Origin: an uncultured Pelagibacteraceae bacterium
GTDB taxonomy: Bacteria > Pseudomonadota > Alphaproteobacteria > Pelagibacterales > Pelagibacteraceae
Assembly: GCA_902515355.1 (NCBI GenBank)
Contig: CABXUA010000001.1
Location: 40,048-104,047, forward strand
DNA length: 64,000 nucleotides
Reading direction: 5' to 3'
Shown: positions 22,384-27,550 of the stretch, piece by piece
How the letters are laid out: every line of letters begins with the position of its first letter
Position numbering within the stretch: the stretch's first letter is position 1
Program-made: the position numbers and the translations under genes
The notes under the pieces: model-generated
The model's input: the letters and a program-made list of their open reading frames with translations, nothing else
What the model was told of the DNA's origin: nothing
The model's database searches: none

Positions 22384-23229
22384 TTAAACTCCTTCGCCTA
22401 CCTTGTATCTTACGAACTCTAGAACTTTTATATCTTTTAGTATATCAGAAACTTTCATTTTGGGATCCATTATCCATATTTGATTTAACAGTGTATTATC
22501 AGAAATAAATTTATTTAATTTTCCTTGAGAGATTTTATCTATCATTTCAGGTTTTTTTCCTGAATTTATCAATTCAGCTTTTATAATTTCTAGTTCTTTG
22601 TCTATTATTTCTTTTTTTAAGTCATTCTTGTCTATTGCTACAGGACTACTTGCAGCTACATGCATCGCCAATTTTGTTCCTAATTCGTTATTTTCTTCTT
22701 TAATATTTTGAAGCTTTACGACAGAAATTATTTTTCCAATATTTTTTTCAATAGATCCATGAACATAGTAATAATTTTTACCATCAGATTTATTAAAAAA
22801 TCTTGCTCTTCTTAGTGTAATTTTTTCTCCTATTTTTGAGATTAAATCAATCAAGTTGTCTTTAACTGAAACTTTATTCTTCATATTGGCAGAATTTATT
22901 TTTTCTAAATCACCTTTTTTATTGAAGCAAATTTCCGAGATTTCCTTACAAAAATTTATAAAATCTTTATTTTTAGCAACAAAATCTGTTTCACTATTTA
23001 TTTCTACAATAGAAATTTCACCTGCTTTTTCGTTAACTAATGATAGCCCCTCTGATGCAGTTCTCGACATTTTTTTAGATGCCTTTGCTATTCCTTTTTT
23101 TCTTAGATATTCAATGGATTTTTCTATATCCCCTCCATTTTCATCGATTGCATTCTTGCAGTCTTTAAAACCTACACCAGTTAGTTCTCTGAGTTTCTTG
23201 ATGTTTTCTAAAAGATCTTTATTTGGCAT
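22384..23229 (-). CDS. tsf: Elongation factor Ts (start corrected to 23229)
   Basis: MPNKDLLENIKKLRELTGVGFKDCKNAIDENGGDIEKSIEYLRKKGIAKASKK; the ORF-track start adds 24 non-homologous residues overlapping the rpsB end. Confidence 0.97.
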   Translation of the reverse strand: MPNKDLLENIKKLRELTGVGFKDCKNAIDENGGDIEKSIEYLRKKGIAKASKKMSRTASEGLSLVNEKAGEISIVEINSETDFVAKNKDFINFCKEISEICFNKKGDLEKINSANMKNKVSVKDNLIDLISKIGEKITLRRARFFNKSDGKNYYYVHGSIEKNIGKIISVVKLQNIKEENNELGTKLAMHVAASSPVAIDKNDLKKEIIDKELEIIKAELINSGKKPEMIDKISQGKLNKFISDNTLLNQIWIMDPKMKVSDILKDIKVLEFVRYKVGEGV

Positions 23230-23248
23230 TTTAAAAGGAAGTAATATT

Positions 23249-24013
23249 TTATTTTTTCTTTTTTGATTTTGAATCGTTTTTTTTAATTGATTTCTTTTCA
23301 ATTTCTTTTTTTTCGTCTATCTTTTCAATAGATTTTGAAGCATCCACGATTGTATTTTTAATAAGATCACAATATAGATTTATTGATCTTCTAGCGTCGT
23401 CATTTCCTGGAATAGGAAATTGAATATCTGTAGGATCTGAATTCGTGTCTAATATTGCTACTATAGGTATTTTTAACTTAATCGCCTCTTTTACTGCTAA
23501 AGACTCTATGTTTGTATCAATTATAAAAATCATATCAGGAATTTTTTTCATATTTTCTATTCCGCCAAGTGATCGTTGCAACTTATCTCTTTCTTTCCCT
23601 AATTTTAATATTTCTTTTTTTGTAAAACCAATGTCGTCTTTAGATAATTGCTCGTTTAAAAGCTTCATTCTTTTTATAGAATTTTGTATTGTGTTCCAAT
23701 TTGTTAACATTCCACCTAACCATCTGTAATTCACAAAAAATTGTTCTGTTTCATTCGCTAGATCACTTATTTGTTCAGAGGCTTGTTTCTTTGTAGATAC
23801 AAGTAAAATTTTTCCACCTTTAGCGATACATTTATGAATTTCTGATAAAGCGTTCTTTAAAAAAACAACGGTTTGAGTTAAATCAATAATATGGATAGAA
23901 TTCTTGTCTCCAAAAATATAATCTTTCATTTTCGGATTCCATCTTAAAGTTTTATGACCAAGATGAACTCCGGCTTCCAATAATTGTTTTATATTTACTT
24001 CAGGTATTCTCAT
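23249..24013 (-). CDS. rpsB: 30S ribosomal protein S2
   Basis: LLEAGVHLGHKTLRWNPKMKDYIFG, NYRWLGGMLTNW, PDMIFIIDTNIESLAVKEA. Confidence 0.98.
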   Translation of the reverse strand: MRIPEVNIKQLLEAGVHLGHKTLRWNPKMKDYIFGDKNSIHIIDLTQTVVFLKNALSEIHKCIAKGGKILLVSTKKQASEQISDLANETEQFFVNYRWLGGMLTNWNTIQNSIKRMKLLNEQLSKDDIGFTKKEILKLGKERDKLQRSLGGIENMKKIPDMIFIIDTNIESLAVKEAIKLKIPIVAILDTNSDPTDIQFPIPGNDDARRSINLYCDLIKNTIVDASKSIEKIDEKKEIEKKSIKKNDSKSKKKK

Positions 24014-24083
24014 ATTTTCCGGTTAAATCCACCACAGCTATTCCAAAATTGGACCGGTAGGGCAATTGCCCTTAATTGCTGTG
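24014..24083 (-). ncRNA. Structured 5' leader of rpsB with predicted pseudoknot (candidate S2 autoregulatory element)
   Basis: Minus-strand CACAGC..GCTGTG closing stem (24083-24078/24038-24033), AGGGC-AATT-GCCCT hairpin (24072-24059), TCCA..TGGA hairpin, and CCGGT (24057-24053)/ACCGG (24023-24019) crossing pairing 5-9 nt before the rpsB ATG. Confidence 0.75.
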
Positions 24084-24099
24084 TGCGAAATTATGTTTT

Positions 24100-24126
24100 A
24101 GTATATTCAAAAATAGAAAAAATCAA
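24100..24126 (-). promoter_or_regulatory. Possible housekeeping-sigma promoter for rpsB (TTGATT-N15-TATACT)
   Basis: Sits just upstream of the leader; -10 TATACT is good, spacer is short (15 nt). Confidence 0.4.
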
Positions 24127-24130
24127 GTGA

Positions 24131-27100
24131 CTAAAAGCTTATTTTTTTAACGTATTGCTTGTTTTTAACATTATTGAAGGTATTTAAATCGAATTTTCTT
24201 GTCTTTTCAAGTTCAAAAGCAAAACTTTTATTTTTATCATTGATGATGAAGTTTATTTTTGTACTTCCAGTCTCTTTTAAAACTTCTTTTAATTCCTCAA
24301 TATCGTAATCATGGCTTAATTCAATGGATACATTTTTATATGGTTTTCTTATCATCTCACTTAAATCTAAAATTTTTCTTATGTTTATTCTTTGTTGAGC
24401 GCTTTCTCCAAGAATTTTGTCTTTCTGTAAGGTTAAAATAAATGATCCGGACTCTTTTAATTTATCCCTATTGGCTGTTAAGAGTTCAGAAAAAAGAAAT
24501 AATTCAAACTCACTGCTATTATCGCTAAATTTTACTATTGCAAAAGGAGTACCTTTTGAACTCTTTTTTTCTTGAATAGACATAATAGTTCCCGCAACAA
24601 GAGCTTCCTTTGAGTCTTTTGTTAAAAATTCTTTATATGATTTAATTTGTAATTGTGAAAATAATTCTTTGTATTCATTTAATGGATGGTCTGAAATATA
24701 GAATCCTAATGAATTAAATTCTTCAGCTAACAACTCTTTTTTTGTCCAAGGTTTTTCTGCTTTAAAATCAAATAAATCTTTTTCTGATTCATTTGTTAAA
24801 TCAAAAAGATTGCTCTGTTTGCTTTTTTTATCATCATTAATGCTTTTTATAGTTAATATAATTTTTGGTATTGAAGAAAATATTTTTTTCCTATTTTTTT
24901 CTATATCGTCAAACGCTCCTGCTTTGACTAATCCTTCAAGCTGAAGTTTGTTAACATTTTTAGGATCTACGCGTCTAATAAAATCCGTAAAAGATTTATA
25001 TTTCCCGTTTTTTTCTCTTTCAGTTACAATATTTGAGATAGCTTCAAAACCAACATTTTTAATTGCCCCCAAACCATAATAAATTTTATTTTTTCCAGCT
25101 TTAAATTCAGCATAACAATTATTTATGCTGGGTCTTATCACTTCAACCCCTAATCTCTTTAACTCTTCAACAAATTCTCTTAATTTGTCTGTGCTTGTCA
25201 ATTCAGTGGACATTGTTGCAGCAATAAAATCTTCCTTGTGATATGTTTTTAAATAAGCAGTTTGGTACGCTATAAGCGCATAAGCTGCCGCATGACTTTT
25301 ATTAAATCCGTATTCAGCAAAGGGTTCTATTTTTGTAAATATAAAATTTGCTAATTCTTTGTCTATCCCATTTTTAATTGCTCCATTAACGAATCTCTCT
25401 TTTTGTCTTTCAAGCTCTGCTCTCTTTTTTTTTCCCATTGCTCTTCTCAAAATATCCGCTTCTCCTGCTGTAAAACCTGCTAAAGTTTGTGCTATTTGCA
25501 TTACTTGTTCTTGATAAATAATTATTCCGTAAGTTGGTTTTAATATTTTTTCTAACTTAGGGTGGATGTAATCTGGAGTTTTCAAACCATTTTTACAATC
25601 ATTATAAATTGGAATGTTGTTCATTGGTCCTGGTCTATAAAGTGCTACCAAAGCAATTATGTCTTCAAATTTATTTGGTTTCATTTGACGAAGCGACTCT
25701 CTTACTCCAGTACTTTCAAGCTGAAATAAACCGGTTGTTTCTCCTGTAGATAAAAGTTTGAATATATTGTCGTCTTTAAGGTTAATTTTGCTTATGTCCA
25801 CTTTAATATTCTTTTTTGCTAACATTTTTAAAGTTTTATCAATAACTGTTAACGTCTTTAATCCAAGGATATCAAATTTTACTAAACCCGCATTTTCTGA
25901 TGAGTGCATATCAAATTGAGTTGAAGGCAAAAATAAATTAGAGGAGTGATCTTTGTAAAGAGGAACTTGTTCTGATAATTTTTCCCCTGCAATAACTACT
26001 CCAGCTGCGTGCGTAGCCATATTTCTATTAAGTCCTTCTAGTTTAAGGGATAGTTCTATTAATTTTTCAACTTTTTTGTTGTTTTTTATTTCTTCTTTAA
26101 ATCTAGGCTCTCTATCAATAGACTCCTTTAAAGATAGTGGGCGAGATGGATCAAAAGGAATCATTTTACAAATTTTGTCTACATGGCCATATGGTAAACC
26201 TAAAACTCTACCAACATCTCTTAAAGCCATCCTAGCTTTCAATTTTCCAAAAGTGATGATATGTGCGACACCACCTTTATATTTTGATTTTAAATATTGA
26301 AATATTAAATCTCTCTTTTCCTCACAAAAATCTATATCAAAATCTGGCATGGAAATTCTATCAGGGTTTAAAAACCTTTCAAAAATAAGATCAAATTCAA
26401 TAGGATCTAAATCAGTAATATCTAGAGAGTATGCTACCAGTGAACCAGCGCCCGAACCTCTTCCTGGTCCAACTGGAATATTGTTATTTTTAGCCCATTT
26501 TATATAATCTGAAACTATTAAAAAATAACCAGAATAATTCATTTTTGTAATTATATTTAATTCGTGTAAAAGCCTATCTTCATAAATTTTAATAATTTTT
26601 TCTTTATTAATAATTTTATTTTTTTTTAATATAAAATTTTTTAATCTATTATTTAAACCATTTTTAGCTTGAGAATTGAGTTCCTCTTCAACGGTAAGAT
26701 TTTTTTTAATCTCTAGTGACGGGAGAATTGGATTTGATTTTTTAGGTTTAAAGTTAAATCTATAAGGAAAATTATAATTATTTTCTAGAGCTTCAGGTAT
26801 ATCTTTAAATATTTTTTTTAAATCGTCATTACTTTTTAAATAATGTTGATCATTATACCTTTTTCTTTTTGAGTCATTAATAAAATTTTTTTCGCCAATA
26901 CAAATAAGTGCGTCATGAGCCTCAGAAAGATTTTTTTCTAAATAAAAAACTTCTTGAGTAGCAATCAAAGGAATATCTAATTTTTTAGATAAATTAATTA
27001 AAAATTTTTCGTAAGAATTTTCTCCAGCCTCTTCATGTCTTTGTATCTCAATATATATTCTGTCTTTCAACGAAATTTTTAGTCTTTTTATGTTCTCTTC

Positions 27101-27550
27101 AATTTTTTTTAATTTGTTTTTTTTAAATAATTCACCAAATAAATCAAATTGGTTTCCAGTTAATATAATTAAATCTTGGTTTAAATTAACTAATTCATCA
27201 AAATTACAATGAGGATCATTTTCTTTGTTAGAGTCTAAGTAGCTTTTAGAAGATAATTTTATAAGATTTTTATAACCGAGTTCTGTTTTTGCAAAAATGG
27301 GAATTTTTCCAATTGTTCCCTCTAATAAAAAATTTATCTGGGTTCCAATAATTGGTTGGGTGCCGACTTTACTAATCTTTTCAGAAAATTCCAAAGCTCC
27401 ACATAAATTATAGCTATCGCATATGCCAATTGCTTTTATTTGTTTTTCCTTACAAGTTAAAACTAAATCATCTATTCTTATTGCACCTTCGCAAATAGAA
27501 TATTGAGTATGAATTTTAAAATTATTAAATTTTTGGTTAACTTCGACCAT
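24131..27550 (-). CDS. dnaE: DNA polymerase III subunit alpha
   Basis: 1139 aa; PVGPGRGSGAGSLVAYSLDITDLDPIEFDLIFERFLNPDRISMPDFDIDFCEEKRD. Confidence 0.98.
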   Translation of the reverse strand: MVEVNQKFNNFKIHTQYSICEGAIRIDDLVLTCKEKQIKAIGICDSYNLCGALEFSEKISKVGTQPIIGTQINFLLEGTIGKIPIFAKTELGYKNLIKLSSKSYLDSNKENDPHCNFDELVNLNQDLIILTGNQFDLFGELFKKNKLKKIEENIKRLKISLKDRIYIEIQRHEEAGENSYEKFLINLSKKLDIPLIATQEVFYLEKNLSEAHDALICIGEKNFINDSKRKRYNDQHYLKSNDDLKKIFKDIPEALENNYNFPYRFNFKPKKSNPILPSLEIKKNLTVEEELNSQAKNGLNNRLKNFILKKNKIINKEKIIKIYEDRLLHELNIITKMNYSGYFLIVSDYIKWAKNNNIPVGPGRGSGAGSLVAYSLDITDLDPIEFDLIFERFLNPDRISMPDFDIDFCEEKRDLIFQYLKSKYKGGVAHIITFGKLKARMALRDVGRVLGLPYGHVDKICKMIPFDPSRPLSLKESIDREPRFKEEIKNNKKVEKLIELSLKLEGLNRNMATHAAGVVIAGEKLSEQVPLYKDHSSNLFLPSTQFDMHSSENAGLVKFDILGLKTLTVIDKTLKMLAKKNIKVDISKINLKDDNIFKLLSTGETTGLFQLESTGVRESLRQMKPNKFEDIIALVALYRPGPMNNIPIYNDCKNGLKTPDYIHPKLEKILKPTYGIIIYQEQVMQIAQTLAGFTAGEADILRRAMGKKKRAELERQKERFVNGAIKNGIDKELANFIFTKIEPFAEYGFNKSHAAAYALIAYQTAYLKTYHKEDFIAATMSTELTSTDKLREFVEELKRLGVEVIRPSINNCYAEFKAGKNKIYYGLGAIKNVGFEAISNIVTEREKNGKYKSFTDFIRRVDPKNVNKLQLEGLVKAGAFDDIEKNRKKIFSSIPKIILTIKSINDDKKSKQSNLFDLTNESEKDLFDFKAEKPWTKKELLAEEFNSLGFYISDHPLNEYKELFSQLQIKSYKEFLTKDSKEALVAGTIMSIQEKKSSKGTPFAIVKFSDNSSEFELFLFSELLTANRDKLKESGSFILTLQKDKILGESAQQRINIRKILDLSEMIRKPYKNVSIELSHDYDIEELKEVLKETGSTKINFIINDKNKSFAFELEKTRKFDLNTFNNVKNKQYVKKISF

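Follow-up and report, generated by a model that had tools for sequence, protein, structure and literature searches.

An RNA element upstream of rpsB, the rpsB motif, was published in 2009 from Pelagibacter ubique and marine metagenomes, with three stems, P1, P2 and P3, and a pseudoknot formed by the junction J2-3 (Meyer 2009, PMC2704228). That paper states that the motif occurs in most Alphaproteobacteria and Gammaproteobacteria, gives the dnaE-rpsB gap of Candidatus P. ubique HTCC1062 as positions 873155-873283, and notes that the motif does not obviously resemble the S2 sites of 16S rRNA. It also reports that an rpsB-lacZ fusion is under the cis control of the corresponding region in E. coli, a region that responds to S2 in trans. 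In E. coli, excess S2 assisted by S1 represses rpsB-tsf translation through the 5′UTR; the review that describes this places the ribosome-binding site outside the operator and calls the details unclear (PMC10931766). Direct occlusion of the ribosome-binding site is therefore not a conserved feature of this system.

The window analysed here is a stretch of 64,000 nucleotides from an uncultured Pelagibacteraceae bacterium whose genome is a partial assembly of 766 kb. The S2 protein of the window and that of a single-cell genome, uncultured Pelagibacteraceae bacterium AG-916-G03, share 97% identity, which places the window in SAR11 (Pelagibacterales); P. ubique (leader L119) belongs to the same family and to a different genus. 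The minus strand carries, in this order, dnaE, the leader, rpsB and tsf, with tsf following rpsB as it does in the E. coli operon. The listed tsf open reading frame (22384-23301) opens with TTG inside rpsB; the ATG at 23229, past the rpsB stop, is the likelier start. The features of the locus are as follows.

24131-27550, minus strand: dnaE (Pfam family match).
24121-24126, minus strand: candidate −35 box TTGATT (TTGATT or TTGCTT is seen repeatedly at this position within the genus).
24100-24105, minus strand: candidate −10 box TATACT, spacer 15 nt (putative; a TATA-rich stretch recurs in most of the genus).
24014-24088, minus strand: the whole rpsB leader element (RF01815 match and held-out covariance model).
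24078-24087, minus strand: P1 5′ strand, CGC, bulged A24084, CACAGC (fold; SAR11 covariation).
24059-24072, minus strand: P2 hairpin AGGGC-AAUU-GCCCU (fold; four of four counted pairs changed on both sides in SAR11).
24053-24057, minus strand: pseudoknot 5′ arm CCGGU in J2-3 (invariant in SAR11; compensatory changes in other Alphaproteobacteria and E. coli).
24042-24053, minus strand: P3 hairpin UCCA..UGGA (fold; two of three counted pairs changed on both sides).
24030-24038, minus strand: P1 3′ strand, GCUGUG then GUG (fold; SAR11 covariation).
24019-24023, minus strand: pseudoknot 3′ arm ACCGG, rpsB positions −10 to −6 (same evidence as the 5′ arm, plus the spacing analysis).
23249-24013, minus strand: rpsB, ribosomal protein S2 (PF00318, E 5.6e-87).
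22384-23229, minus strand: tsf, elongation factor Ts, the next gene (PF00889, E 7e-59; ATG 23229 read from the sequence).

The leader forms a three-way junction of P1, P2 and P3, with a crossing helix between CCGGU (24057-24053) and ACCGG (24023-24019), the 3′ arm ending 5 nt ahead of the rpsB AUG. The original prediction had quoted this leader, its two hairpins and the CCGGU/ACCGG complementarity, and all were recovered in place; the crossing helix that it drew over the initiation region does put its 3′ arm at −10 to −6. The closing stem that it gave, CACAGC/GCTGTG, is present and part of the fold but incomplete: P1 continues beyond bulged A24084, where CGC (24087-24085) pairs with GUG (24032-24030), followed by a U-G pair in the predicted fold. 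Because P1 is longer than CACAGC/GCTGTG, the 5′ end of the element falls at 24087-24088 and not at 24083, so that the predicted extent of 24014-24083 has to be lengthened. U24053 is shared by P3 (UCCA/UGGA) and the pseudoknot, and those two pairs are thus mutually exclusive. The minimum-free-energy fold contains P1, P2 and P3 at −23.5 kcal/mol, against −16.6 ± 3.2 for shuffled sequences (z −2.2). The thermodynamic signal is modest, the comparative signal strong.

A covariance model built from 58 SAR11 relatives, with the window left out, found the window leader as its sole match in the 64 kb, at 69.4 bits (E 1e-13). RF01815 matched at 24005-24087 with 29.5 bits (E 5.6e-4), its single match in the source genome. 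This is below the Rfam gathering score of 40 bits, which is a search threshold and not a biological feature. The P. ubique leader (33.3 bits) misses it too, so the cut-off under-calls SAR11 and provides no argument against membership; in the 61 SAR11 genomes searched, not one match reaches it. RF01815 matches in 25 of 61 relatives are an underestimate, every leader read by eye having the element. RF00127 (t44), the gammaproteobacterial model of the enterobacterial form, did not match the window leader at E values of up to 10, leaving RF01815 as the one matching model, while the E. coli leader matches RF00127 at 83.5 bits. The E. coli K-12 record (L320, 163-298) carries on the rpsB leader the annotation of a 'small RNA', T44/tff.

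The window leader lies directly upstream of rpsB and has a long closing P1, has P2 and P3, which vary in length in the motif, at the junction, and has a J2-3 pseudoknot with the 3′ extension after P1. It shares with the rpsB motif (RF01815; Meyer 2009, PMC2704228) the gene, the dnaE-rpsB gap, the three stems and the pseudoknot; its P2 and P3 have 5 and 4 bp, where 3 and 2 bp are stated there for P. ubique. With the E. coli rpsB-tsf operator (RF00127, t44/tff) it has in common P1, J2-3 and a crossing helix at the homologous place. It belongs to the rpsB motif RF01815 and is a real, strongly conserved, well-supported and already known element. The doubt on novelty voiced from the start was justified, the 2009 paper describing the motif, pseudoknot included, in Pelagibacter (PMC2704228); with the same element described in a close relative, the present one is ordinary.

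Covariation had been set beforehand as the refuting test; it supported P1 within SAR11 and the crossing helix beyond SAR11. SAR11 leaders were taken from three groups, namely the genus of the window, other genera of the family and a second family of the order. Over 57 distinct rows, 99.2% of P1 cells were paired with four pairs changed on both sides, and 94.7% of P2 cells with all four pairs changed on both sides; the figure for P3, 81.8%, is lowered by a one-column alignment slip. For the whole structure, the observed values were reached by none of 500 shuffles, and sliding the partner by one column reduced pairing from 96% to 43%. P1 variants included CACAGC/GCUGUG, CACAAC/GUUGUG, CACAUAGUA/UACUAUG and CACAAAGCU/AGCUUUG. 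MAFFT alignments including the window placed P2 and the 3′ arm off by one base and were excluded from counting. On alignment A3, RNAalifold returned P1 and a local hairpin, pseudoknots being beyond its scope. In the second SAR11 family (L080-L113) P2 is different (GAUAGC/GCUGUC); by eye, in those members with CACAGC in P1, ACAGC could also pair with GCUGU of P2, a possible alternative fold. Both arms, CCGGU and ACCGG, were present in all 116 distinct SAR11 leaders checked, and the crossing helix was identical throughout. Being invariant, it is neither supported nor opposed by SAR11 alone.

The crossing helix was hence followed outside the order. Built from SAR11, model R1 proved too narrow for a full alignment: many of its matches in distant Alphaproteobacteria covered the 3′ end alone. 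The class-wide test accordingly relied on anchoring in Python and on a short two-arm alignment. AACCGG occurs near the start codon in 129 of 142 leaders of other Alphaproteobacteria. Of the 13 leaders that lack it, twelve have an altered 3′ arm whose 5′ counterpart at the homologous place matches it, across loops of 33-40 nt; the thirteenth, L236, has no such element upstream of rpsB. Such arm pairs include CUGGU/ACCAG, CCGAU/AUCGG, CCAGU/ACUGG, UCGGU/ACCGA and UUCGU/ACGAG, and GGGGU/ACCCC is the counterpart in E. coli, again at the homologous place. In L190 the leader is displaced: its arms, CCAGU/ACUGG, sit some 75 nt ahead of the start codon and are followed by an A/T-rich insertion. The two-arm alignment (24 distinct rows, assembled from chosen rows, with variant 5′ arms placed by eye before counting) had 99.2% of cells paired, four of five pairs changed on both sides and 12 compensatory cells; two of the variants are from one genus and some pair via G-U only. 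Among 500 shuffles, none did as well in covariation score, cell count or percentage paired, and six did so in pair count. Covariation across the class thus shows the predicted pairing of J2-3 CCGGU with the ACCGG that lies between P1 and the start codon.

The leader structure is real, and the window leader is very probably the operator through which S2 controls the rpsB-tsf operon and thus its own synthesis, an example of the published rpsB motif from a genus in the family of Pelagibacter. An unlikely alternative is a conserved structured 5′UTR unresponsive to S2, which would set a constant translation level or mRNA stability, for example by 5′-end protection or as an S1 landing site. The lack of obvious resemblance to the S2 sites on 16S rRNA, reported in PMC2704228, would suit such a leader; however, the homologous E. 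coli region is reported to answer to S2 in trans (PMC10931766; PMC2704228), and the element stays with the S2 gene across Alphaproteobacteria. Still less probable is a separate small RNA upstream of rpsB that is not part of its mRNA: Rfam types both RF01815 and RF00127 as sRNA and the E. coli record places tff/T44 at the leader, but in the window only 5 nt separate the arm from the start codon, a scan there showed nothing resembling a terminator at the leader, and the E. coli region reportedly acts in cis on the rpsB-lacZ fusion (PMC2704228). Chance complementarity of hairpins and CCGG repeats, to which the single-sequence z of only −2.2 and the self-complementarity of CCGG might point, is rejected as highly improbable, since P1, P2 and the pseudoknot covary with controls and all SAR11 leaders checked have the element.

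The SAR11 leader differs from that of E. coli in the position of the 3′ arm relative to the start codon. In E. coli the arm lies 24 nt from the start, a separate AGAGG follows it, and the operator is reported not to contain the ribosome-binding site; in the window the distance is 5 nt and the arm lies inside the initiation region. Across 115 distinct SAR11 leaders the arm is 3-10 nt from the start (group medians 8-9), and a separate Shine-Dalgarno (AGGA, GGAG or GAGG) between arm and start was seen in a single one. In other Alphaproteobacteria the spacing is longer (median 16, n = 127; Mann-Whitney p 6e-41, relatedness ignored) and 106 of 138 leaders have a separate Shine-Dalgarno. About 20 of these other alphaproteobacterial leaders have a short form without one, mostly ACCGGAG, whose GGAG shares GG with the arm. 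ACCGGAG with the arm 8-11 nt from the start was observed in L053, L162, L179, L181, L191, L196, L203, L210, L223, L227, L272-L274, L281, L283 and L284.

In the window, a 4-nt Shine-Dalgarno core was found upstream of 7 of 53 long open reading frames, against 17 of 159 control stretches inside genes; as far as the window and this crude set of open reading frames go, the source genome shows little Shine-Dalgarno use. Given this and the leader sequence ACCGGAAAAU-AUG, the arm fills the landing region of the ribosome and does not mask a strong Shine-Dalgarno. With the arm 3-10 nt from the start and almost never a separate Shine-Dalgarno, the knot in SAR11 could block the ribosome directly. We tentatively propose, as a possibility short of an even chance, that in Pelagibacterales, as in some further Alphaproteobacteria, shortening of the S2 operator has brought its 3′ arm to the ribosome-landing position with no separate Shine-Dalgarno, and that S2 would there repress by direct occlusion, unlike in E. 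coli. The mechanism would then have changed in a lineage-specific way while the operator was conserved. The short arm-to-start distance is not discussed in the available text of Meyer 2009 (PMC2704228).

The following sequence of events may be envisaged. Transcription probably begins shortly ahead of P1, by a few bases, at a predicted start near 24093, from a promoter in the dnaE-rpsB gap, as the recurring boxes upstream of P1 suggest. A promoter-like pair just past the dnaE stop was observed genus-wide (L002-L032, L240-L258, L285), with a TATA-rich box in most; a consensus scan requiring a spacer of 16-18 nt did not pick up the TTGATT box. The leader RNA would then fold into P1 capped by P2 and P3, as shown by covariation. 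By analogy with E. coli, S2 in excess of the needs of 30S assembly, probably helped by S1, would bind the P1/junction region and stabilise the pseudoknot, which would keep the ribosome off rpsB and lower tsf as well. In SAR11, with bases −10 to −6 paired, the 30S subunit may be excluded by direct occlusion, judging from the position of the arm. S2 binding, help from S1 and repression in SAR11 are expected by homology, and S2 autoregulation at this locus would follow from the published E. coli work.

The window adds a second SAR11 genus in support of the view that the S2 leader behind ribosomal-protein feedback elsewhere is retained in a streamlined ocean bacterium. The public RF01815 threshold is also seen to under-call SAR11 members, P. 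ubique included. Finally, the compact layout, with the arm in the ribosome-landing slot and without a separate Shine-Dalgarno, would offer a minimal leader of about 75 nt in which to test the S2 mechanism.
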